From IMG/VR virus record IMGVR_UViG_3300046012_000429, positions 1-56,148 of that record: a DNA stretch of 56,148 nt; one strand, written 5' to 3'. Each line of letters starts with the position of its first letter. Within the stretch, counting starts at the first letter, position 1. The DNA is from a virus. A program made the position numbers and the translations under genes. This document shows, one piece after another, positions 10,101 to 54,127 of the stretch. The notes below the pieces were generated by a model. The model worked only from the letters and a program-made list of their open reading frames with translations. It was not told the DNA's origin and ran no database searches.

Positions 10101-10256
10101 TCAGCGCTCCTGGTGGTTGTTGGCCCAGCACCGGCAGTGCGTCGGCCTGTCGTTCAGGTCCGACCAGGCAGTGGTGTCACAGTTCCAGCATTTGTGATCG
10201 CGGCACTCTGGGCAGATCGGCTTCTCCTCAGTGTCGCGGTTCAGGCCGACACTCAC
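10101..10256 (-). CDS. Small zinc-ribbon protein
   Basis: 51 residues starting at a GTG that overlaps the Rad52-like gene's TGA (GTGA). It carries CPECRDHKCWNCD and HCRCW, enough Cys/His for one or two zinc sites. It sits between recombination genes; function unknown. Confidence 0.65.
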   Translation of the reverse strand: MSVGLNRDTEEKPICPECRDHKCWNCDTTAWSDLNDRPTHCRCWANNHQER

Positions 10257-10909
10257 GACACTGACACCGCCTGCTCGTTGCTCGCTGCGTCGCCGTCATA
10301 GCCGATCTCGACCGCTCCCAGGGATGTGGCCAGGGTCGCCTTCTGCTCGTCTGTCAGCACCACCGGAGCGGGCGACCCAGGGGCCTCGGGATCGAACATG
10401 GGGGAGTCGGGGTCGCTCTGTTGCAAGGTGCCCTTGACGAGCGGTCCCAACTGACCGTCGCGGTAGAGGTGCAATCCGAACGTGTCACCGAGGTTGATGG
10501 CTGCCCGGCGCAGGGCGTAGGACTCCACAGAGGTCACCGCCAGGGCATGGGCCTCACCCCGGCTGGGCTGGGGAGCGGACTCCTCGGCATGCCACTCGGT
10601 GAACTCGGTCACCGGCATTCCGTTGTAGTCACGGATGGTGAGGGTGCAGGCGCAGCGATAGCAGACCTTCCAGTAGGTCTGGGAGGAGATGACCTCACCC
10701 GCGTCGTTGGTCTTCTCCCGTACGTCGGGCTCCTCGTAGATGAGGGTCATGTCGTGGATGCGGGAGTCCCAATTACCAAACCCAAACACTCTGCTCAACT
10801 CAGCCCGCACCTCGAACTGGGGCACGTAACTCTGACCGCGCACCTTCTCGATGCGGTCGGGGCGTACGGGGGTGAGCAGTCTCTTGATCTGTCCGGTGGT
10901 GAATGGCAT
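10253..10909 (-). CDS. Rad52-family single-strand annealing protein
   Basis: 218 residues. The N-terminal half has the Rad52/Sak pattern: QIKRLLTPVRPDRIEKVRG, FEVRAELSRVFGFGNWD, then a beta-rich core with Cys (CYRCACTLTIRDYNGMPV) and the helix AVTSVESYALRRAAINLGD. Such proteins anneal complementary single strands in phage recombination. A -10 (TACAAT) lies exactly upstream so that transcription would begin at ATG 10909, giving a leaderless mRNA; the ATG at 10918 overlaps the -10. The nuclease neighbour fits an annealing/exonuclease pair. Confidence 0.8.
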   Translation of the reverse strand: MPFTTGQIKRLLTPVRPDRIEKVRGQSYVPQFEVRAELSRVFGFGNWDSRIHDMTLIYEEPDVREKTNDAGEVISSQTYWKVCYRCACTLTIRDYNGMPVTEFTEWHAEESAPQPSRGEAHALAVTSVESYALRRAAINLGDTFGLHLYRDGQLGPLVKGTLQQSDPDSPMFDPEAPGSPAPVVLTDEQKATLATSLGAVEIGYDGDAASNEQAVSVS

Positions 10910-10916
10910 GTCTCCC

Positions 10917-10944
10917 ATTGTACCGGAGAAAGGTACAGTGTCCA
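10917..10944 (-). promoter_or_regulatory. Leftward promoter, leaderless start
   Basis: On the minus strand TGGACA, 16 bp, TACAAT. Transcription should start at or next to ATG 10909. Confidence 0.6.
10919..10939. promoter_or_regulatory. Symmetric element between divergent leaderless genes
   Basis: TGTACC (10919-10924) and GGTACA (10932-10937) are inverted about a 7-bp centre. The two arms generate TACAAT on the minus strand and TACAGT (10934-10939) on the plus strand, each about 7 bp before a start codon. It could be a shared operator. No convincing plus-strand -35 was seen. Confidence 0.5.
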
Positions 10945-10945
10945 T

Positions 10946-11215
10946 GTGACCACCACCCAGGCCAGTCTGCGCATCGACTTCTCCGAGGCACCCCACGATC
11001 CGGTGGAGCGGCTGCTCTGGCTGAGTGGGGCGAAGGAGGCGTTCGACGCTCAGGTGGCCACCATGTGGCAGACCGCTTACTTCGAGGCGAGGCTGTCCGG
11101 TCGGTTCGCCGCCGCCTTGGATCTGCACCTACACAGCAGGAAGCGGGCGCTCGCGTTCACGCGGGCAGAGAACGAGCGGCGCGGCCGACCGATGCGCTGG
11201 GGCGACGGGTTCTGA
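10946..11215 (+). CDS. Hypothetical rightward protein inside the leftward block
   Basis: 89 residues from GTG 10946 placed for leaderless translation behind TACAGT. The sequence is mostly helical with a basic C terminus (LHLHSRKRALAFTRAENERR). It runs against all neighbours and its last 59 bp overlap the 3' end of the VRR-NUC gene, so the two transcripts converge. Unrecognised; possibly a regulator of the divergent Rad52-like gene, by position only. Confidence 0.6.
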   Translation: MTTTQASLRIDFSEAPHDPVERLLWLSGAKEAFDAQVATMWQTAYFEARLSGRFAAALDLHLHSRKRALAFTRAENERRGRPMRWGDGF

Positions 11216-11522: not shown

Positions 11523-11852
11523 TCACAGTGCCAGCGTCCATCCTCCTGAACAGTCTGGCAGCACCCAGCCGGTGGGTGTCTTGAACGGCATCAGCCAGGG
11601 CTCGCAGACATTGCGTTCGACGATCAACCCGGCTTCTTTCGCCTTGGTCGGATTGTGGTGGGCCCAGGTGTGGCATGTCGCGCACAGCCAGACGCCAACA
11701 CAGGGACAGTGGGTATGGCTGTCGCGCACCGAACGCGACCGACGGTGGTGCCAGTGTCCGTTCGGTGCGGGTATCTGGCACCTAGCACACCGGAAGCGCT
11801 CCCGGGCTTTGACTAGTTCCCGGGAGCGCTTCGGTATAGGTGTTGCTTTCAC
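11523..11852 (-). CDS. HNH endonuclease
   Basis: 109 residues with an HNH/zinc layout: RCARCQ, GHWHHRRSR, WLCATCHTWAH and a later Asn/Cys (VERNVCEP). GTG 11852 overlaps the preceding TGA (GTGA), setting the start. HNH enzymes near phage replication genes may act in DNA packaging, homing or host DNA degradation. It is not next to the terminase here. Confidence 0.8.
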   Translation of the reverse strand: MKATPIPKRSRELVKARERFRCARCQIPAPNGHWHHRRSRSVRDSHTHCPCVGVWLCATCHTWAHHNPTKAKEAGLIVERNVCEPWLMPFKTPTGWVLPDCSGGWTLAL

Positions 11853-11989
11853 TTCTTGTGATTCTCGTCCCTGTGGTGACCCCAGAGACGGGCACGCCAC
11901 CGCGCACCCGTCTCCAGGTAGTAGGCGACGACGCCTCCTAGGAACCCACCGCTGAACGCCACGACGAGGACCTGCCACCACTCACTCAT
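11849..11989 (-). CDS. Small single-pass membrane protein
   Basis: 46 residues: MSEWWQ, one hydrophobic helix (VLVVAFSGGFLGGVVAYYL), then a basic tail ending HHRDENHKK. Start and stop both lie in ATGA/GTGA overlaps. Orientation is probably N-out, C-in by the positive-inside rule. Function unknown. Confidence 0.6.
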   Translation of the reverse strand: MSEWWQVLVVAFSGGFLGGVVAYYLETGARWRARLWGHHRDENHKK

Positions 11990-12111
11990 CGTGAGCGGGT
12001 TTCTTCCAACTCGACCAGCATCCACAGCCATGACTCGGCCTGCAACTCGCTGATCTCACGGCGGGCCAGCAGTGCGAGCACACTGGCGACCAACAGGTCC
12101 CACTCGCTCAT
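11986..12111 (-). CDS. Hypothetical 41-residue protein
   Basis: It starts MSEWDLLVASVLALLARREI and is then helical and acidic. Both ends are in 4-bp ATGA overlaps with neighbours, the main support for it being real. Confidence 0.5.
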   Translation of the reverse strand: MSEWDLLVASVLALLARREISELQAESWLWMLVELEETRSR

Positions 12112-12206
12112 CCGACCACCACCATCAACACCGTGTAGAACACCAAGATGGCGATGCTGACGGCAGCGATCGCTCCGAGGAGAACCCAGTCTTGATCCTC
12201 AGTCAC
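12108..12206 (-). CDS. Tiny membrane peptide
   Basis: 32 residues, GTG start, nearly all one transmembrane helix (LLGAIAAVSIAILVFYTVL). It overlaps the upstream stop by 8 bp and the downstream start by 4 bp. It shares an identical 20-bp stretch (12141-12160) with the minus-strand peptide gene at 52225-52308, indicating common origin. Confidence 0.55.
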   Translation of the reverse strand: MTEDQDWVLLGAIAAVSIAILVFYTVLMVVVG

Positions 12207-12768
12207 TGCTGTCGGACTCCTCACTCTCTACTCCCTTCAGCCGACCTGGCTGCTGTTCGATCTGGACCGCGTGCTCACGACCGAGCCCACCCTCCAGCCC
12301 CTTGCCGAGACCAGCGGTCAGGTTGGTCAAGATCTCGGGGTTGGCGTCGATGGTGTCCATCACTCGGTTGACGATGTGCACCACGTTGTCCAGCCGGACC
12401 TTGAGCATGGCCTGGACCCGGACGTTGTCGATCTGCACGTCGACTCGGTCGATGGACACGTCAGCGCCCACGTCGAGTTCCAGCAGATCGAGCACCTTGG
12501 CTCGCAGGTTCACATGGGCGCGGAGGTTGTCGACCTCGATGCCGATGTGGTCGACCCCCAGGTTGGGGATCGACAAGAGCACGTCCGGGTCGTTGTTGGA
12601 GCCCAGCCACTGCTCGGCGGTGGCGTGTTGCAAGGGCTCCAACGTGGCCGAGGTGTCGGTCCGCCCGGCCTTGTCCTGCCTGGCGTTCCAGGTCTCGATG
12701 TTGCGACCATCGTCAGTCCCGTGGCGGACGAGGCTCCCTTGGCTTTCTTGGCTGTCGGTCGGGTCCAC
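12199..12768 (-). CDS. Gas-vesicle-cluster-associated-like protein (third of trio)
   Basis: 189 residues if GTG 12768 is used; the start is uncertain because the 5' part overlaps the preceding gene and lacks a clear SD. The core, about residues 60-150, is a regular repeat-like beta pattern (VDHIGIEVDNLRAHVNLRAK, then ALLELDVG-type and VRVQAMLKVRLDNVVHIV). I recall similar proteins in Actinobacteria close to gas-vesicle genes. The C terminus is acidic and Ser-rich. Together with the next two genes it forms a unit; biochemical role unknown. Confidence 0.6.
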   Translation of the reverse strand: MDPTDSQESQGSLVRHGTDDGRNIETWNARQDKAGRTDTSATLEPLQHATAEQWLGSNNDPDVLLSIPNLGVDHIGIEVDNLRAHVNLRAKVLDLLELDVGADVSIDRVDVQIDNVRVQAMLKVRLDNVVHIVNRVMDTIDANPEILTNLTAGLGKGLEGGLGREHAVQIEQQPGRLKGVESEESDSSD

Positions 12769-13693
12769 GTCGGCGGGGCTGCTTGGGCTCCTCGGCGTCC
12801 TCGGACTGTCCGGCATCTCCGGCGCCATCATCTATCTCGTCCTCCGGCTCGGCTTCGCCCTGTTCCTGGGCTTCACCTTCCGACCCACGTTCTTCCCCGT
12901 CACCGGCTTCGGACTGTGCTTGTAGGCCATCCTGTTCGCCCACGCCTGCCGAATCCTCTCGGTCCATCTCATCTGGTTGCTCCTCCTCGTTCTCAGGTGC
13001 GGGCAGCATCATCAGGTGCCGCCCGAAGTGCTTCACGTCCAACCGGGCACGGCGCCCGACCGTCCGCCATCTGTTGCCCATCCACTCGAAGAACCCCTTC
13101 GGCCGGTACTCCAGCGTGTAGAGGATCAGGGTGGCGTTGTCCCCGATGGGGGTGAAGGTGATGCAGCCGTCGATGGTCCCCTTGGCCGCCTCGGTCGACC
13201 ACCGGATACGCCGGTTCTCGACCTGTTCCTCGACGGTCGCCTTCCACGACCGTCGGTTGAGGAAGATCTTGGCCGTCCACTGGGAGGTCTGCTTGGCCTC
13301 GCCGTCGTCGCCCTCCTCCTCGTCGACCGTGACCTTCTCGGGACCCTTCATGAACTCGGGGAACTGGGCGTAGTTGGTCCACTCCTCGAACGCCTGCTCG
13401 ACCGGGACACCGACGAACAACTGTTCGTAGATGTTGGTCGGACGCTTGGCGGAGCCGCCCACCATCTTCTTGAATGCCCCTTTGATGCCTCCCCAGAGGG
13501 TCGACCTCCCCTCCGAGGCGGCGTCCGTGGCCCCCTCAACGGCACCCGATGTCGCACTGTCCTCTCCCGCGAACTTGGCGGCGGCTCCAGACACCATGTG
13601 CCCCGCTTGGGCCCCGGCGAAACTGCCGAGGGCTCCGAGCAGGTCCTTGGTGGCCGGGTCCTCCCGCAGTCGGGACAGGAACGACTCAGCCAT
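12713..13693 (-). CDS. SRPBCC-domain protein like those of actinobacterial gas-vesicle clusters
   Basis: 326 residues. The N terminus (MAESFLSRLREDPATKDLL, then a Gly/Ala helix) precedes a START/polyketide-cyclase (SRPBCC) domain at about 88-235: YEQLFVGVPVEQAFEEWTNY, FPEFMKGPEKV, RSWKATVEEQVENRRIRW, PIGDNATLILYTLEYRPKGF, RARLDVKHFGRH. The C-terminal 100 residues are highly acidic, then basic-Pro. This order (N helix, SRPBCC, charged tail) matches the SRPBCC protein I know from Streptomyces gas-vesicle loci. ATG 13693 overlaps the upstream gene by 8 bp. No lipid ligand can be inferred. Confidence 0.75.
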   Translation of the reverse strand: MAESFLSRLREDPATKDLLGALGSFAGAQAGHMVSGAAAKFAGEDSATSGAVEGATDAASEGRSTLWGGIKGAFKKMVGGSAKRPTNIYEQLFVGVPVEQAFEEWTNYAQFPEFMKGPEKVTVDEEEGDDGEAKQTSQWTAKIFLNRRSWKATVEEQVENRRIRWSTEAAKGTIDGCITFTPIGDNATLILYTLEYRPKGFFEWMGNRWRTVGRRARLDVKHFGRHLMMLPAPENEEEQPDEMDREDSAGVGEQDGLQAQSEAGDGEERGSEGEAQEQGEAEPEDEIDDGAGDAGQSEDAEEPKQPRRRGPDRQPRKPREPRPPRD

Positions 13694-14237
13694 CGGAGTT
13701 CTCCTCCTTGTTCTCCTCCGCTTCGGCGTCGTCCTCGGTCCACTCCTCGTCGGACTCGTGCTCGGGGTCATCGTCAGGAGTTGCGTCGTCTGTATCAGAG
13801 GGGGCGTCTTCGCCCTCCTCCTTCTTGGGCTTGCGCTTCAACTTGCTCGTCAACTTGCTCACCGTCCCTGTGGTCTGGTCGACCGTGTCGCTAACGGTTT
13901 CGGCGGTTCCCTCGACTACCTCAGTAGAGGCGTTCTGCAGCCGCTGGGTCCGCTCGGTCAAGCCTTTGGTGATGCCGACCATCCGGGCCTGCACAGCGGC
14001 CATCGCTGCCTGCTGGATGGCCTCCTGCAGTGGCCCACGTACCTGGTCGGTGATCTGTTTGGCTTCCTCGCTGGCCAGCATCTGGGTGGCAAGGGTCCGG
14101 CCCTTGCCGACCAACTGCTGGGCTTGCTGATTGCCGGACAGGAACATGGCGAAACGTAGGGCAGTCCCGCCCTTCTTCGTCCGGCCCAGGATGTAGCCAC
14201 CGACGACGGCTGCACCCAACTTCGCGTTCTCGTTCAT
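13686..14237 (-). CDS. GYxLGRTKK-type protein, gas-vesicle-cluster-associated (first of trio)
   Basis: 183 residues beginning with a short hydrophobic segment and basic motif (KLGAAVVGGYILGRTKK), then amphipathic helix with coiled-coil character and a very acidic tail. This is the design of the small protein, often mislabelled DNA primase, beside the SRPBCC gene in Streptomyces gas-vesicle loci. ATG 14237 has AAAGGA upstream. A GGTTAAGG palindrome lies 40 bp upstream and probably marks the start of the three-gene unit. No GvpA-like structural gene is present in the window. Confidence 0.7.
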   Translation of the reverse strand: MNENAKLGAAVVGGYILGRTKKGGTALRFAMFLSGNQQAQQLVGKGRTLATQMLASEEAKQITDQVRGPLQEAIQQAAMAAVQARMVGITKGLTERTQRLQNASTEVVEGTAETVSDTVDQTTGTVSKLTSKLKRKPKKEEGEDAPSDTDDATPDDDPEHESDEEWTEDDAEAEENKEENSDG

Positions 14238-14322: not shown

Positions 14323-14550
14323 TCAGTACCGCTCCGGCCAGGTGACCGGGCGGCGCGGCTTCATCACCAGCCCGCCCATCATGGACACGATGTCGTCGAA
14401 CTTCTCGGTCACATCGAGGTACTGGCCGGTGCCCAGGAAGATCCGGGTCACCTCGTTCAGCGGCACCGCGAAGTCGATGCTGATGATCGGCACCAGGACC
14501 GGTCCACCCACCTCCTCCGCGCTGGTCAGCAGCAGCACGTACGGCGTCAT
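14323..14550 (-). CDS. Hypothetical 75-residue protein
   Basis: Starts at ATG 14550 in a 4-bp overlap with the preceding gene. It has hydrophobic beta strands (YVLLLTSAEEVGGPVLVPII) and ends RRPVTWPERY. Unrecognised. Confidence 0.6.
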   Translation of the reverse strand: MTPYVLLLTSAEEVGGPVLVPIISIDFAVPLNEVTRIFLGTGQYLDVTEKFDDIVSMMGGLVMKPRRPVTWPERY

Positions 14551-15122
14551 GCCAGCACCAACTCCTGCATCAACCGGGGGAGGTCGCCGTCGGTGCCGAT
14601 GGCCTCGATCTGGGTGGGCTCGCCCCACTCGATTGCGTGTCCGTTCCGGGTGTAGCGCTGCTGGACGTCATAGCCCGGTCCGTCCGGGGCCACACAGATC
14701 GCTGCCAGTGCCTCGTAGGCGTCCGGGTCCCCGACCTCGAACGCTGCCTGGGCCTCACCCCGCACCACGTTCGGGTCGTCGATCACCTTCGCGTAGGTGT
14801 CCAGGGCCAGCGCCACCCAGTCCACGCTGGGGATCTGACCAGCCAGCCGCAGGTGCACCAGTTCGTGCAGCGCCTCGACCGGGTGGACGTTCAGCAGTGG
14901 CAGCATCCCGGACTCCGAGCCCATGCCGATGCAGATGACACCGAGGGCCTCGCCGCTGCTCTCGATCATCTCCCGCATCATCGCGAGGAAGAACGAGGCA
15001 TCCGGCGGCGGTCCACCGTAGGGGTGGATGATCAGCGCCCCGGCGTTCTCGGCCTCGGCCAGTGCGGTGATCATCGCCGCCTGCTCGGCCAGCGATGACA
15101 AGAACCCCTCGCCCTCAGTCAT
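14547..15122 (-). CDS. Hypothetical 191-residue protein
   Basis: An acidic, well-folded-looking protein with helices and a hydrophobic core (EALGVICIGMGSESGMLPLL, HELVHLRLAG, WVALALDTYAKVI). HELVHL resembles an HExxH zinc motif only loosely (HELVH), so no protease claim is made. It overlaps the upstream gene by 8 bp and the downstream gene by 4 bp. Confidence 0.65.
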   Translation of the reverse strand: MTEGEGFLSSLAEQAAMITALAEAENAGALIIHPYGGPPPDASFFLAMMREMIESSGEALGVICIGMGSESGMLPLLNVHPVEALHELVHLRLAGQIPSVDWVALALDTYAKVIDDPNVVRGEAQAAFEVGDPDAYEALAAICVAPDGPGYDVQQRYTRNGHAIEWGEPTQIEAIGTDGDLPRLMQELVLA

Positions 15123-44799: not shown

Positions 44800-46569
44800 A
44801 TGCCCCGACGCAAGGCTGAGCCGGAAGCGGTGGTGATCCCCACTTCTTCTCTGGTGGCATCTGCCACCCGCTATCCGGGGAAGGCGGCGCGGATCTACCA
44901 GCCGCGCCAAGACTGGCAGGCCGAGTGTTATCGGCACTACGGCATCTGCGGTGAGGCCCGGTTCGCCGCCAAGTTCTTCGGCCACTCGGTCTCGCGCGCC
45001 ACGCTGTTCGCCGCCGAGAACGTCAAAGGCACCACGGTCGCCACCCCAGCGGGGCAGGCGGCCGATCTGCTGGAGGCACTGTTCAACGGCAAGGACGGCC
45101 AGACCCAGATGCTCGACAGCATCGGCACCCACCTGACCATCGCCGGGGAGTGCTACCTGGTCGGTCGTGCGGTCGAGGGGGTGGACACCTGGGAGATTGT
45201 CTCCGTGCTGGAGATGCAGGTGACCGGCACCAACTGGCAGATCAACTACGGCCAGGGCATCCCTGCGGTGCAGTTGACCGACGAGGACGTGGTCATCCGG
45301 ATCTGGCTGCCGAGCCCCGCGCATCGGATCGAGGCCGACTCCCCGTTCCGCGCCCTGCTGCCGATCCTGAGTGAGATCGAGTGGCTCACCCGGCACGTGT
45401 TCGCCCAGATCACCTCCCGGCTGGCAGGCAGCGGCATCCTGATCATGCCGCAGGGGATGACGTTCCCCCCACCACCAGAGCAGACCCTGCCGGACGGCAC
45501 CACTGCCCCGGCCAAGCCCGCCAACGACGCCGACTCGTTCATGGCCACCCTGGCCGACGCGATGATGGCGCCCATCGAGGATCCGTCCTCGCCCAGTGCG
45601 GTGGTACCGATCGTGGTGACTGCACCCGACGACACCATCGACAAGCCCCGGCTGCTCACCTTCTGGAGCGAACTCGACTCCGCGTCAATGGGGTTGCGCA
45701 ACGAGGCGATTCGTCGCTTCGCTCTGGGAATGGACCTGCCGCCGGAGCAGGTACTCGGAATGTCAGGCACCTCGACCTCGTCCAGTGGGAGCGTCAGCCA
45801 CTGGGGTGCCTGGCAGGTCGAGGAGTCGACCATCAAGTTGCACATCGAGCCGATGCTCGACGTGATCGTCAACGGCCTCACCGTGGGCTATCTGCGTCCG
45901 CTCACCGACGACTTGTCCGTCGTCGCTTACGACTCCTCCGCGCTGCGGCTACGTCCGGACCGTTCCAAGGAAGCGTTCGAGTTGTACGACCGGGGCCTCA
46001 TCTCCGCCGAGGCGCTGCTGCGGGAGAACGGCTTCGACGAGGACGACGTGCCCAAGCCGGACGAGTTCGTGCGCTGGCTGACCATCAAGGTCGCCTCCGG
46101 CTCTGCTACCCCCGAACAGGTCCAGGTGGCCCTGCAGCGGCTGGGGGTCGACCTCGGGGCGATAGCGCTGCCCGAGGCGGTTCCACGTGAAACGCGGCCC
46201 GACCGCACCCTGGAGGACCACCCCACCCGGCCCCGCACACCGGACGAGAACGCCTTGGTCGCGGCGAGCGAAGCCCTCGTCTTTCGGGCTCTGGAGCGGG
46301 CGGGCAACCGGATGCGGCAGAGCGTGGCCAAGCCCCCGGGAGTCCCCGCGTACGAGACCCACCTGTACGTGAAGGCCAACGGCACCTCGGAGAAACTCCT
46401 GGAGGATGCCTGGTCGTGCGCTCCCCAGGTGTTGGACGGCATCGCGGACTGTTCCATCGTGGTCCCGGTGCTCACCTCGTACTGCGTCTCGCTGATGAAG
46501 GAGCAGTCTCCGCACCGTCGCGACCGACTGGTCAACTGGCTGCGGCTGGCTGACCAGGTCTCGGCATGA
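44800..46569 (+). CDS. Portal protein
   Basis: 589 residues with portal-type content: FAAKFFGHSVSRATLFAAEN, NGKDGQTQMLDSIGTHLTIA, VIRIWLPSPAHRIEADSPFR, FALGMDLPPEQVLGMSGTS and HWGAWQVEESTIKLHIEP. It forms the dodecameric DNA channel that binds terminase. ATG 44800 after GGCGGAAGTAGTCACGC. The 3' part contains a parS-like site (46180-46193). It ends in an ATGA overlap with the MuF-protease gene. Confidence 0.9.
   Translation: MPRRKAEPEAVVIPTSSLVASATRYPGKAARIYQPRQDWQAECYRHYGICGEARFAAKFFGHSVSRATLFAAENVKGTTVATPAGQAADLLEALFNGKDGQTQMLDSIGTHLTIAGECYLVGRAVEGVDTWEIVSVLEMQVTGTNWQINYGQGIPAVQLTDEDVVIRIWLPSPAHRIEADSPFRALLPILSEIEWLTRHVFAQITSRLAGSGILIMPQGMTFPPPPEQTLPDGTTAPAKPANDADSFMATLADAMMAPIEDPSSPSAVVPIVVTAPDDTIDKPRLLTFWSELDSASMGLRNEAIRRFALGMDLPPEQVLGMSGTSTSSSGSVSHWGAWQVEESTIKLHIEPMLDVIVNGLTVGYLRPLTDDLSVVAYDSSALRLRPDRSKEAFELYDRGLISAEALLRENGFDEDDVPKPDEFVRWLTIKVASGSATPEQVQVALQRLGVDLGAIALPEAVPRETRPDRTLEDHPTRPRTPDENALVAASEALVFRALERAGNRMRQSVAKPPGVPAYETHLYVKANGTSEKLLEDAWSCAPQVLDGIADCSIVVPVLTSYCVSLMKEQSPHRRDRLVNWLRLADQVSA
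46180..46193. promoter_or_regulatory. Match to bacterial parS core (GTTCCACGTGAAAC)
   Basis: Identical to the chromosomal parS core GTTNCACGTGAAAC bound by ParB, lying in portal codons for VPRET. Other CACGTG hexamers in the window lack the flanking bases. Confidence 0.6.
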
Positions 46570-49091
46570 GCGTCTTCACCACGGGGCCGGACTGGGAGCA
46601 GAACTTCCTCACTCCCGAGTCCTCGGAGTCCTTCGCGGCCCGGCGACGCAAAGCCCAGGACGAGGCGATTGCGCAGATCAGGTCAACGGTCACCGCCTGG
46701 GTGGCCAACCTCGACGATCCGAACGCCTTCGTCGAGATGAACGAGGCGCTGGCAACCCTCTACACCGATACCTACCGGGGCGAAGGTGGCGACCGGCTGG
46801 CCCGTGTTGCGGGGTTCATCTTCTCGCTGCGCGGCGTGGTCAACCACACCATGTCCACCTCGAACCCGGAGGCTGTGTCGACCTGGCTGGCGGTGGCCAC
46901 GATCAATGCCGCCACCCTCCAGGCCGCTACGGAAGACCCACGTCCACTGTTGCTGAAGTGGACCACGATGCACGACAGCAAGGTCCGCGAGGCTCACGCA
47001 GCGGCCGACCGGCAGCGCCGCCCGGCGGGCTCAGTGTTCCACGTCGGCGGCGAGAACCTGCGCTATCCCGGCGACCCTCGGGCCAGCATCGAGAACACCA
47101 TCAACTGCCGGTGTGTGATTCAGGTAGTCCCGGTCAACCAGTCGGCTCTGACGGCTGCTCTCAAGGAGAACCCCATGCCCCTCGAAACCCCCCTGGCGTG
47201 GCACGGTGTCCTCGCCCCCGAAGGCGCCTGGTCCGGTGACGGGCGGCGATTCGCACTGGACTCGCTGAGCAACCGCGACCTGCCGCTGCCGCTGACCTGG
47301 CAACGGGCCACCGGCGAGGGCCACGACGGCTCCACCGTGGTCGCCCGGATCGACACCATCGAGCGAGTGCCGGGCGAGAACGGCGTCAACCTGATGCAGG
47401 CCGGAGGCACGTTCATCGACACCCCGGAGACCGACGAGGTGGTCGGGCTGATCGCTGAGTTCGGCAAGTTCGGGGTAAGCGTGGATGCCGACGACTCCGA
47501 GTTCGAGTTCGACGACGAGTCCGGCAAGGTCACCTTCTCCCGAGCCCGGATCGCCTCCGCCAGCCTGGTGTCCATCCCGGCCTTCGCCGAGGCGTACGTG
47601 GCGCTGGGGCCGTGGGAGACCGAGGAGGCCGCCGGAGCCCCGCCGTTCCCGAAGAAGGGCGAGGAGCCGGTCGACGACGAGGAGGAGTGCGACCCCGACT
47701 CCGAGGACTACGAGGACTGCATCGCCCGCAAGAAGCACGACAGCCCCGAGGGTGAGCAGGACCCCGGCTGGGTGCCGGTGGCCCCGAAGCGCAGCGCCGA
47801 CGCGGAGGCGGTGTCGGCGTCGGTGGCGTTCATCTCGGATAAGGCGTGGGACGGCAGCGCTGGTCGCTTCACCCCGGAGCAGTGGAAGAAGTCCACTGTG
47901 CTGCACGTCTGCGACGGCGACGAGAAGTCCTGCCACAAACTCCCCATCAAGGAGCCCGACGGCGCGCTCAACCGCGCCGCTGTACACGCCGCCGCGTCCC
48001 GCTTCAACCAGGTCGACGCTCCGGCCGAGGCGAAGGCCAAGGCGGCGCGCGCCCTACGCGGTGCGTACAAGACACTGGGTGAGGACCCGCCCGAGGTCCT
48101 CCAGGCCAGCCTTGTGGAGGACTTCGGGCGCGGTCCTGGCTGGGTGACCAACCCGGTGGAGACTCGGCGGATCTGGGCCTACTGGACCCAGCCGGGACAC
48201 GAGGGCTACGCCAAGATCAACTGGGGGGTGCCCGGCGACTTCAACCGCTGTCGGCTGGAGGTGGGCGAGGAGATCGGTGAGAACTCTCCAGAGGACCTGC
48301 GCTTCCTGAACCAGATCTGCGCTCAGTGGCACCACGACGCCACCGGCTTCTGGCCGGGCCGGGCACCGACTGAGCGGGCAGGTTCAGGTGGCCTTAACCC
48401 CGAAGGCAAGGCGGCACCGGCGGTCAGTCTGGTCGCCTCCGGTGGCATCAAGGCTCCGGCGTCCTGGTTCGAGAACCCGAACCTGACCGAGCCCACCCAT
48501 CTGACCGTGACCGAGGAGGGCCGGGTGTTCGGCCACATCGCGGAGTGGACCTCCTGTCACATCGGCTACCCCGAGGTGTGCGTGGCGCCGCCCACCTCGG
48601 CCAGCGACTACGCCTACTTCGCGTCCAAGCGGGTGCTGTTGGACAACGGCGAGTTCGCCCGCACCGGGGTCATCTCCCTGGGTGGCGGGCACGCCCCCGG
48701 CAACATGGGCTTCTCCGCTGCGATCGAGCACTACGACCGCACCTCCACCGCTGCCGCCGACGTGGCCGTGGGTCAGGACGAGCACGGCATCTGGGCAGCG
48801 GGCTGGATGCGTCCGGGCTGGACGGAGAAGCAGGCGTACGACCTGCGAGCCTCCGACATCTCCGGCGACTGGCGCGAGGTCCGTCCCGGTCAGATGGAGA
48901 TGGTCGCGGCGCTGGCGGTCAACGTGGCCGGGTTCCCGGTGGTCGCGGTGCACGACCAGGCTCAAGTGACCCTGGTCGCGGCCGGGGTGGTGAAGGAGAC
49001 CGACCCGATGTCTGCGGTGGTGCGGGAGGTCGTCGCCACCTTGGCTCGGCGCGACAAGATGGCTCAACTACGCGAGAGAGTGGGTGTCTGA
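46566..49091 (+). CDS. MuF-like protein fused to capsid maturation protease and an extra C-terminal domain
   Basis: 841 residues. The MuF-type region at about 130-200 has TTMHDSKVREAHAAADRQ, GENLRYPGDP, NCRC. A prohead-protease-like domain at about 210-350 has LPLPLTWQRATGEGHDGS and ARIASASLVSIPAFAEAY. An acidic linker is followed by a helical module (AVHAAASRFNQVDAPAEAKA). After residue 605 comes a second beta-rich domain (FGHIAEWTSCHIGYPEVCV, RVLLDNGEFARTGVISLGGG). At the joint (AGSGGLNPEG) sits a mutated palindrome whose intact form would be a stop. Confidence 0.85.
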   Translation: MSVFTTGPDWEQNFLTPESSESFAARRRKAQDEAIAQIRSTVTAWVANLDDPNAFVEMNEALATLYTDTYRGEGGDRLARVAGFIFSLRGVVNHTMSTSNPEAVSTWLAVATINAATLQAATEDPRPLLLKWTTMHDSKVREAHAAADRQRRPAGSVFHVGGENLRYPGDPRASIENTINCRCVIQVVPVNQSALTAALKENPMPLETPLAWHGVLAPEGAWSGDGRRFALDSLSNRDLPLPLTWQRATGEGHDGSTVVARIDTIERVPGENGVNLMQAGGTFIDTPETDEVVGLIAEFGKFGVSVDADDSEFEFDDESGKVTFSRARIASASLVSIPAFAEAYVALGPWETEEAAGAPPFPKKGEEPVDDEEECDPDSEDYEDCIARKKHDSPEGEQDPGWVPVAPKRSADAEAVSASVAFISDKAWDGSAGRFTPEQWKKSTVLHVCDGDEKSCHKLPIKEPDGALNRAAVHAAASRFNQVDAPAEAKAKAARALRGAYKTLGEDPPEVLQASLVEDFGRGPGWVTNPVETRRIWAYWTQPGHEGYAKINWGVPGDFNRCRLEVGEEIGENSPEDLRFLNQICAQWHHDATGFWPGRAPTERAGSGGLNPEGKAAPAVSLVASGGIKAPASWFENPNLTEPTHLTVTEEGRVFGHIAEWTSCHIGYPEVCVAPPTSASDYAYFASKRVLLDNGEFARTGVISLGGGHAPGNMGFSAAIEHYDRTSTAAADVAVGQDEHGIWAAGWMRPGWTEKQAYDLRASDISGDWREVRPGQMEMVAALAVNVAGFPVVAVHDQAQVTLVAAGVVKETDPMSAVVREVVATLARRDKMAQLRERVGV
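48381..48399. repeat. Dispersed palindrome copy 18, mutated and intragenic (GGTTCAGG TGG CCTTAACC)
   Basis: One change (TAA to TCA, in frame) from the consensus, at a domain junction of the MuF-protease protein. Confidence 0.8.
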
Positions 49092-52346: not shown

Positions 52347-52474
52347 CTCCTTCCAACAGACCCCTCTGTTTTGGGTGTACTGTCCCCCGCAGGAAGTTCT
52401 TCCACTGGACCTTGGTGCCCGGGATCTCGACTTGCGCTTGGCGCAGACCCCTACGACGCCGAGGAGCAAGTCCC

Positions 52475-54127
52475 GTGGACCTCAACAAGAACTTCACCGC
52501 ACTGGATGCTGACGCGCTGGCGACCTACGCCGCCCAGGTCCGTGCCGCTTTCGACGCCATCGCGTCCGCCGATGCCCCGACCGAGGCCCAGGTCACCGAG
52601 GCCGAGGGCTACGCCGAGCACCTGGAGGCCATCGAGGCCGAGCAGACCGCCCGCACCGAGCGTGCCGAGGCTCTTGCTGCCCGCACGGCCGCACTGCGCA
52701 CCCGCTTCGCCACCGAGGAGGGCGGCGAGGACGAGAGTGCCACCAACGTCCCGATGGATGAGGAGCCCAACGACGACGACGACGAGATCGGTCCCGACAC
52801 CGTCGAGGAGCCCCTCTCTGAGCCGACCATCGTCAAGCGCCCCGGTGCTGGAGAGAAGGCTCGCTCCGGTGTGACCACCCTCGCCAAGCGGACCACCCGT
52901 CCGGTCAAGCCCGCCCGGTCCCGTGCTCCGATCACCATCACGGCCGCCGCCGACGTGCCCGAGTTCGCTACCGGCTCGAAGATGGAGGGGCTGGAGCAGG
53001 TCACCACGGCGATGATCAACCGGATGCGTGGCTTCGGCGCCCCGTCCGGCGACGGCAGTCACGAGGATCTGCGCCACGTCGGCGTCGCGTCCTTCGCGCT
53101 CGACTTCCCACAGGAGTTGACCTCGGATCGGCACTCCGACGACATGGAGGTGCTCGCGGCCGCAGCCAAGGAATCCCGCCTCCCCGGCGGCTCCCTCACC
53201 GCTGCCGGTGGCTGGTGCGCGCCGAGTGAGACGATCTACGACCTGTGTGCACAGGAGACCGCCGAGGGCCTGCTCTCGCTGCCGGAGATCAACGTCACCC
53301 GGGGCGGCATCAAGTACACCAAGGGTCCGGACTTCTCCGACATCTACGACAACGTCGGCTTCTGCCAGACCGAGGCGCAGGCCATCGCGGGGACCACCAA
53401 GACCTGCCTCGAAGTGGCCTGCCCGCCGTTCCTGGAGGTCCGGCTCGACGCCTGCGGCATCTGCGTCAAAGCCCCGATCCTCACCAACGCGGCCTACCCG
53501 GAACTGGTGCAGCGCTACATCAGCGGTTCGATGATCGCCCACCAGCACAAGATGAACGTCAAGGTGATCAACACCATCGTCGCTGGCTCGACAGCCAAGA
53601 CCGCCACCGGTCTCGGCGCAGTGGCCACCGACACCTTCGATGCGCTGACCCTGTTCGCCAACGTGCAGCGGGAGAAGTACCGCATCTCGCCGAACGCCAG
53701 CCTGGAGGTCATCCTCCCGTTCTGGGTCAAGGACCTGATCAAGTCCGACATCGCCCGCCGCAACGCGGTCGCGGTCGAGGTGATCTCCGATGCTCAGGTT
53801 GCCTCGGAGTTCTCCAGTCGGAACCTCGCGGTCCAGTACGTGTACGACTACCAGCCCCTCGGCGAGGACGCGGTGGCCTACCCGGACACCTTCAACGCGC
53901 TGATGTACCCGGCGGGTACCTGGGTGAAGGGCACCGCCGACGTGATCAACCTCAACGCGGTGTACGACGCGGCGGAGTTGGCCAAGAACATGTACACGGC
54001 GCTGTTCTTCGAGCAGGGCATCCTCGCAGCGCAACTGTGCTGGGACTCCCTCAACATCGAGATCCCGGTCTGCAACGCCGGTCGCTCCGGAGCGCCTGAC
54101 CTGGTGTGCGGCGCCATCGTCCCCTGA
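52475..54127 (+). CDS. Major capsid protein with N-terminal scaffold-like domain
   Basis: 550 residues. Residues 1-170 are helical and acidic (ATYAAQVRAAFDAIASADAP, EAEGYAEHLEAIEAEQTART), like the delta/scaffold domain removed by the protease. From about 180 an HK97-fold capsid follows (ALDFPQELTSDRHSDDMEVL, TPEVRLDACG-type segments, NASLEVILPFWVKDLIKSDI, MYTALFFEQG). GTG 52475 has GAGGAG 8 bp upstream; the frame is open further but lacks an SD. Several Cys (CQTEAQ, KTCLEVACPP) might cross-link. Confidence 0.88.
   Translation: MDLNKNFTALDADALATYAAQVRAAFDAIASADAPTEAQVTEAEGYAEHLEAIEAEQTARTERAEALAARTAALRTRFATEEGGEDESATNVPMDEEPNDDDDEIGPDTVEEPLSEPTIVKRPGAGEKARSGVTTLAKRTTRPVKPARSRAPITITAAADVPEFATGSKMEGLEQVTTAMINRMRGFGAPSGDGSHEDLRHVGVASFALDFPQELTSDRHSDDMEVLAAAAKESRLPGGSLTAAGGWCAPSETIYDLCAQETAEGLLSLPEINVTRGGIKYTKGPDFSDIYDNVGFCQTEAQAIAGTTKTCLEVACPPFLEVRLDACGICVKAPILTNAAYPELVQRYISGSMIAHQHKMNVKVINTIVAGSTAKTATGLGAVATDTFDALTLFANVQREKYRISPNASLEVILPFWVKDLIKSDIARRNAVAVEVISDAQVASEFSSRNLAVQYVYDYQPLGEDAVAYPDTFNALMYPAGTWVKGTADVINLNAVYDAAELAKNMYTALFFEQGILAAQLCWDSLNIEIPVCNAGRSGAPDLVCGAIVP

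Follow-up and report, generated by a model that had tools for sequence, protein, structure and literature searches.

The first two genes (T1 and T2) of an overlapping trio in the tailed-phage record analysed here are, in all probability, the phage homologues of the gvpY-gvpZ pair of actinobacterial gas-vesicle (gvp) clusters, and the third gene (T3) belongs with the same high probability to a separate actinobacterial family that was repeatedly joined to this pair outside gas-vesicle clusters. What is new here is that T1-T2-T3 recurs, free of gvp genes, as a module of Herbidospora and other bacteria.

The trio in its phage context

The window (the whole analysed stretch of 56,148 bases) represents the record of a tailed phage with portal, capsid, terminase and tape measure genes: the tape measure and minor tail genes are located at 0-8 kb, and the interval of 42-56 kb holds the terminase, portal, head genes, endolysins, capsid and major tail protein. 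Queries with capsid and portal retrieved 848 phage records each, mostly of actinophages (Mycobacterium, Gordonia, Microbacterium, Arthrobacter, Streptomyces); the top match of the capsid gene (52412-54127, plus strand) was Pseudanabaena cyanophage Pam4 (47% over 72%), not an actinophage. Separate stretches of an 841-aa ORF (46566-49091, plus strand) matched portal, head-morphogenesis, virion-structural and head-maturation-protease PHROGs, and this ORF may encode a fused multi-domain head protein. A run of minus-strand genes, including a primase/helicase-like gene, occupies the stretch between about 32 and 10 kb; the trio is situated within this recombination/replication run, on the strand opposite to the structural block and far from it:

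14323..14628, minus strand: gene directly upstream of T1 (homologue of 54% identity also in a second T1-bearing virus)
14237-13686, minus strand: T1, GYxLGR protein of 183 aa (gvpY-position homologue)
13693-12713, minus strand: T2, SRPBCC/START-fold protein of 326 aa (gvpZ-position homologue)
12831-12199, minus strand: T3, protein of 210 aa of a gvp-independent family
12108..12206, minus strand: putative 33-aa ORF with one hydrophobic segment and a GTG start just before the T3 stop
11849..11989, minus strand: putative small membrane-protein ORF (MSEWWQVLVVAFSGGFLGGVVAYY...), 3' of the trio, within its packed run
10253-11128, minus strand: Rad52-family recombination gene in the minus-strand run

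The last two entries before the Rad52-family gene are readings of the sequence, and on this basis the 33-aa ORF is probably the fourth gene of the trio transcript. An earlier note on this DNA had described three overlapping genes at 12199-14237; all of them are indeed present on the minus strand, with overlaps of 8 bases (T1/T2) and 119 bases (T2/T3) and a purine-rich ribosome site before each gene. The ATG of T2 at 13693 has a GGAGG upstream (the first ATG of the ORF, 13771, is an unlikely start), and in T3 a GGAGG is positioned 9 nt 5' of the ATG. The trio is not a chance assembly, because homologues of T1, T2 and T3 occur elsewhere in the same order. Neither the GvpA family (PF00741) nor any other gvp homologue was found within the 56-kb record; phmmer searches of the window with Kitasatospora Gvp queries revealed no homologues of GvpF/L, GvpG, GvpK or GvpO, the matches being confined to T1-T3, in agreement with the earlier reading that a GvpA/J/F/L/K-like gene is missing. 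As the record may not be complete, this absence applies to the window.

The branches of phage T2 and T3 are long (about 1.8 changes per site each) and have no close relative beside them, so that T2 and T3 were not recently captured from a host. The IMG/VR scans (T1, T2 and T3 proteins, alignments and DNA patterns) yielded one further true case (IMGVR_UViG_3300044247_000057, L091; L092-L095); two other candidates, L116 and L117, turned out to be false. In this second virus, T1 is located at the end of the contig, and the gene preceding T1 as well as several further genes are shared with the window; the whole trio is seen in one virus only, the T1 of the second virus being cut by the contig end with the stretch beyond it out of view. 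Between the two viruses (71% identity of T1), the dN/dS value of T1 was 0.34 over 134 codons: T1 is under purifying selection. A test of the second virus for joining ends found no repeat shared by the two ends. No match to T1-T3 was obtained in 50,697 phage genomes or in the 848 phage records related by capsid and portal, and no phage-borne gvp accessory genes were found in the literature searched.

Architecture and predicted folds of the three proteins

T1 consists of a short hydrophobic N-terminal segment containing the GYxLGR motif, a helical-reading region and an acidic tail with 49% Asp/Glu; the motif of the phage protein (GYILGRTKK) and its tail are as the earlier note had given them. 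The residues G14, Y15, G18 and R19 are invariant across 31 T1-family sequences, and phage T1 was assigned to the family by its GYxLGR-type motif, its homologous N-terminal region (phmmer) and its position directly upstream of T2. No credible name was returned for T1 by Pfam, NCBIfam or PHROG, and no relative with a solved structure was found. Its middle region gave a weak apolipoprotein-like match (0.0034) that may be a composition effect; T1 also gave a weak hit to a head-scaffolding PHROG (0.0042). The identity to the gvp-cluster T1 of a Streptomyces chromosome (L053) amounted to up to 42%.

The proposal that T2 is an SRPBCC protein with an acidic tail was borne out by the match to Pfam Polyketide_cyc (2.4e-17) and by a tail of 94 aa with 35% acidic residues; the domain carries the conserved GNxWRxxGRRxRL...K segment and is preceded by an N-terminal region of about 80 aa. 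According to the AlphaFold2 model, T2 is predicted to adopt the START/Bet v 1 helix-grip fold (pLDDT mostly >90 in the domain; acidic tail and N-terminal helices of low confidence), and the model gave 404 matches in the PDB at E <= 0.001, the best at E 2.8e-9. Nearest to it were ZhuI aromatase/cyclase, TTHA0849, DR_A0006 (also found by profile comparison) and a mycobacterial START protein, i.e. START/aromatase-cyclase folds with hydrophobic pockets; the usual ligands of START-type folds are lipids or other hydrophobic molecules. Domain match and predicted fold are thus common to T2 and the SRPBCC/START superfamily (Pfam PF03364; DR_A0006, PDB 3ggn; ZhuI, PDB 3tfz), from which T2 differs by the extra N-terminal region and the acidic tail. 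The identity to gvp-linked T2 proteins reached 50% (L108).

For T3, no credible family was found in Pfam, NCBIfam or PHROG. The phage protein contains the T3 family domain (PDVxLDVP...GADV...KVRLDNV...DxNPxIL); the alignment of 45 sequences comprised 18 invariant columns, with 43-57% identity to the phage protein. The predicted structure shows a conserved amphipathic beta-hairpin (residues 84-145, two strands of 30 residues) followed by two helices (147-183), with a pLDDT of about 77-91 in hairpin and helices and a pTM of 0.32. The strands alternate between hydrophobic and polar residues, the mean hydropathy being approximately +2.4 to +4.3 on one face and -2.5 to -3.9 on the opposite one; such a long hairpin, standing alone, points to oligomerisation or to a bound partner. 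Foldseek revealed no match to the T3 fold at E <= 0.05 in PDB or BFVD, and a second structural comparison reached an uninformative Z of 2.2 at best, mostly with long-hairpin pore and ring proteins.

A distant relationship of T3 to GvpA, as an alignment by eye might propose (ARVSL, EA...V-D-R), was rejected: in an hhalign test against 53 GvpA/J/S cores with shuffled columns as control, the probability was 0.1%, below the best shuffled controls. Searches of the kind named in the earlier note as a check of the gvp link divide the trio: T1 and T2 are homologous to gvp-cluster genes, whereas T3 has no PF00741 match and resembles the GvpA family solely in its general alpha/beta amphipathic character.

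Among the best 80 of 245 confirmed stretches (one genome per species), T3 was common in Streptomyces and related actinobacteria, with outliers in Deinococcus and Lysobacter. The homologue on a Deinococcus plasmid (L006:7881-8882) has a signal-peptide-like start, a sign that T3 may be able to function outside the cytoplasm. Actinobacterial T3 proteins (L086:7761-9323, L019:3372-4550) bear long tails of GAGGAVKDVG-type repeats, of LEA/apolipoprotein-like composition, that are missing in the phage protein. At 67 of about 87 T3 loci (among L008-L111; e.g. L019:4551-4823, L049:8945-9217), T3 is followed on the same strand by T4, a short gene that is conserved (consensus VRADRLRFEEEPETEVRFPG...NLPDRVEPGVEYRDVRVDYRLATRL); T4 has no Pfam family and was not found in the phage.

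Gas-vesicle clusters and gvp-free loci in actinobacteria

The T2 homologues of Rhodococcus plasmids (approximately 50% identity, tblastn) lie inside annotated gas-vesicle clusters, with the gene of a GYxLGR protein before them and GvpA/J, GvpF/L and GvpG genes after them. In Kitasatospora, the T1-T2 pair adjoins a complete gvp cluster in divergent orientation, the pair of a Streptomyces plasmid is located upstream of the gvp cluster, and the Streptomyces chromosome L053 shows the arrangement gvpO-A-F-G-T1-T2-J-L-S-K; the Streptosporangiales possess two cluster types (O-A-F-G-T1-T2-J-L-S-K and T1-T2-A-F-G-O-J-L-S-K). The published gvp gene order of S. coelicolor has gvpY and gvpZ at the T1-T2 place (PMC5839063); SCO6503/SCO6504 of this species (PMC5839063) are equated with T1/T2 by gene order, not by sequence. 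The gvpY/gvpZ genes of Serratia bear the same letters and lie outside this comparison; their sameness with T1/T2 is not to be assumed. Phage T1 and T2 resemble the genes at the actinobacterial gvpY/gvpZ positions in sequence, T1-T2 order and tight spacing, but the phage record lacks GvpA/F/G/J/L/S/K/O and adds T3, and its T1 locus is not inside a gvp cluster (neither in a gvpG-gvpJ interval nor before gvpA).

The earlier note had assigned the whole trio to Streptomyces-type gvp loci and had named a survey of genomic neighbourhoods as a check; by this survey, the assignment holds for T1 and T2 and fails for T3. In 81 Streptosporangiales genomes, 39 of which carry GvpA, 28/37 strong T2 hits had a GvpA-family gene no more than 6 kb away (4/37 were within 3 kb of T3, 5/37 near neither GvpA nor T3), and GvpA was present in 33/34 T2-bearing genomes (Fisher p = 3e-15). 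In contrast, none of the 24 T3 genes in the same genomes had GvpA within 20 kb, and the two genes did not co-occur preferentially (GvpA in 13/24 genomes with T3 versus 26/57 without, p = 0.63); among the T3 loci fetched, L053 is the only one adjoining a gvp cluster. The description of the trio as resembling gvp accessory genes needs correction, since T3 is not gvp-linked. At one further locus (L112, G180:C8), two tandem T2-type SRPBCC genes were observed with neither T1, T3 nor gvp detected beside them.

T1-T2-T3 without gvp is present at six Herbidospora loci (L033, L042, L052, L055, L057, L068), there on one strand, and in G186, and T2-T3 without gvp in three Actinomadura loci (L071, L086, L087) and G189. 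Saccharopolyspora, Prauserella and several Streptomyces have T1-T2 and T3 in divergent orientation, and S. oceani shows the order T3-T4-T1-T2. Families, order and strand of the Herbidospora (T1-T2-T3) and Actinomadura (T2-T3) loci are as in the phage; these loci are, however, chromosomal, their T3 has the long repeat tails, and T4 is usually present (67/87 loci), features which the phage lacks. Of the 20 genomes with gvp-free T3-T1/T2 loci, 15 have GvpA somewhere and 5 have none detectable (as drafts may be incomplete, this absence is provisional), which indicates that the module can occur without gas vesicles. In the T2 tree, T3-linked copies are scattered among gvp-linked ones and supported branches force at least 4 label changes: the co-location of T3 with T1-T2 arose more than once or was repeatedly lost, and either history argues for a functional tie. 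T3 has no T1/T2 neighbour at 62/84 loci. The T1-T2-T3 combination is mainly a gvp-free arrangement, which the earlier note had not foreseen; this arrangement favours the note's own option that the phage uses the trio for another task over gas-vesicle work.

Possible roles of the trio during infection

As a tentative proposal, which may well turn out otherwise although it is the most likely of the readings considered here, the trio could be a stand-alone hydrophobic-interface module that, in the infected cell, deals with lipids or with hydrophobic faces of proteins at the envelope of the host. Through its short hydrophobic N-terminal segment and the following helix, T1 would attach to the inner membrane or to a protein surface of hydrophobic character, the START-type pocket of T2 would bind a lipid or a hydrophobic peptide, and the T3 hairpin with its one hydrophobic face, probably oligomeric, would be laid along the same surface as T1, the acidic tails keeping the complex soluble. 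In a gvp cluster, T1 and T2 would have the hydrophobic GvpA shell as their client; where GvpA is missing, the natural substrate would be a membrane or lipid surface, and in the phage the target of the trio would be the envelope or the membrane lipids of the host. The START fold of T2 and the beta-hairpin of T3 are model predictions, and we infer the mutual interaction of T1, T2 and T3, their binding to membrane or lipid, the time of their expression and their effect on infection. The position near replication and recombination genes points to an action on the cell, not in the virion; the weak apolipoprotein match of T1, the pTM of 0.32 and the missing fold match of T3 set limits to the interface reading, as do the observation of the whole trio in a single virus and the majority of T3 loci (62/84) that have no T1/T2 beside them.

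Alternatively, the phage proteins might target the gas vesicles or gvp machinery of the host, with diverged GvpY/GvpZ mimics binding GvpA or its chaperones in order to block, dismantle or redirect shell assembly. Potential hosts with GvpA are common (39/81 Streptosporangiales genomes) and the highest identities of T1 (42%, L053) and T2 (50%, L108) are to gvp-embedded copies; nearest-copy identity is, however, weak evidence because the phage copies are placed on long branches, and T3 is not linked to gvp, while the chromosomal counterparts of the full trio are located away from gvp, some of them in genomes without GvpA. Interference with host gas vesicles is thus considered unlikely, and less likely than the interface reading.

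A contribution to virion or intracellular phage assembly (scaffold-, chaperone- or internal-membrane-like) would suit three proteins that are all acidic, amphiphilic and partly disordered, as is frequent in scaffolds and chaperones, as well as the weak match of T1 to the head-scaffolding PHROG; the distance of the trio from the structural block, its opposite strand, its vicinity to the Rad52-family gene and the missing T1-T3 matches in the 848 capsid/portal-related records make such a role improbable. The same low probability is given to an acquired host module whose benefit goes to the infected cell or the lysogen (tolerance of stress or osmotic change, storage of lipids) and not to phage growth: chromosomal and plasmid copies of the trio families are widespread in actinobacteria and the gvp clusters of Streptomyces respond to salt (PMC5839063), but the genes form part of a tightly packed phage run and not an isolated moron, and branches of this length do not indicate a recent capture.

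In a wider and more speculative extension of the interface reading, T1-T2-T3 (in bacteria usually with T4) might constitute an uncharacterised actinobacterial hydrophobic-interface system, independent of gvp, of which the gvpY-gvpZ pair would be one specialised use and which an actinophage lineage could have domesticated for envelope remodelling or for a protein- or lipid-bounded structure. The function of the genes at the gvpY/gvpZ positions of actinobacterial gvp clusters is unsettled, and a statement in PMC5839063 (citing van Keulen 2005) puts in question whether these soil bacteria produce gas vesicles at all. Judging from the phage copy and from chromosomal copies at a distance from gvp, part of them in genomes that lack GvpA, the pair seems to have a job separable from the GvpA shell; the question of what this job is becomes testable in small systems, with T3 as the partner family to pull down.
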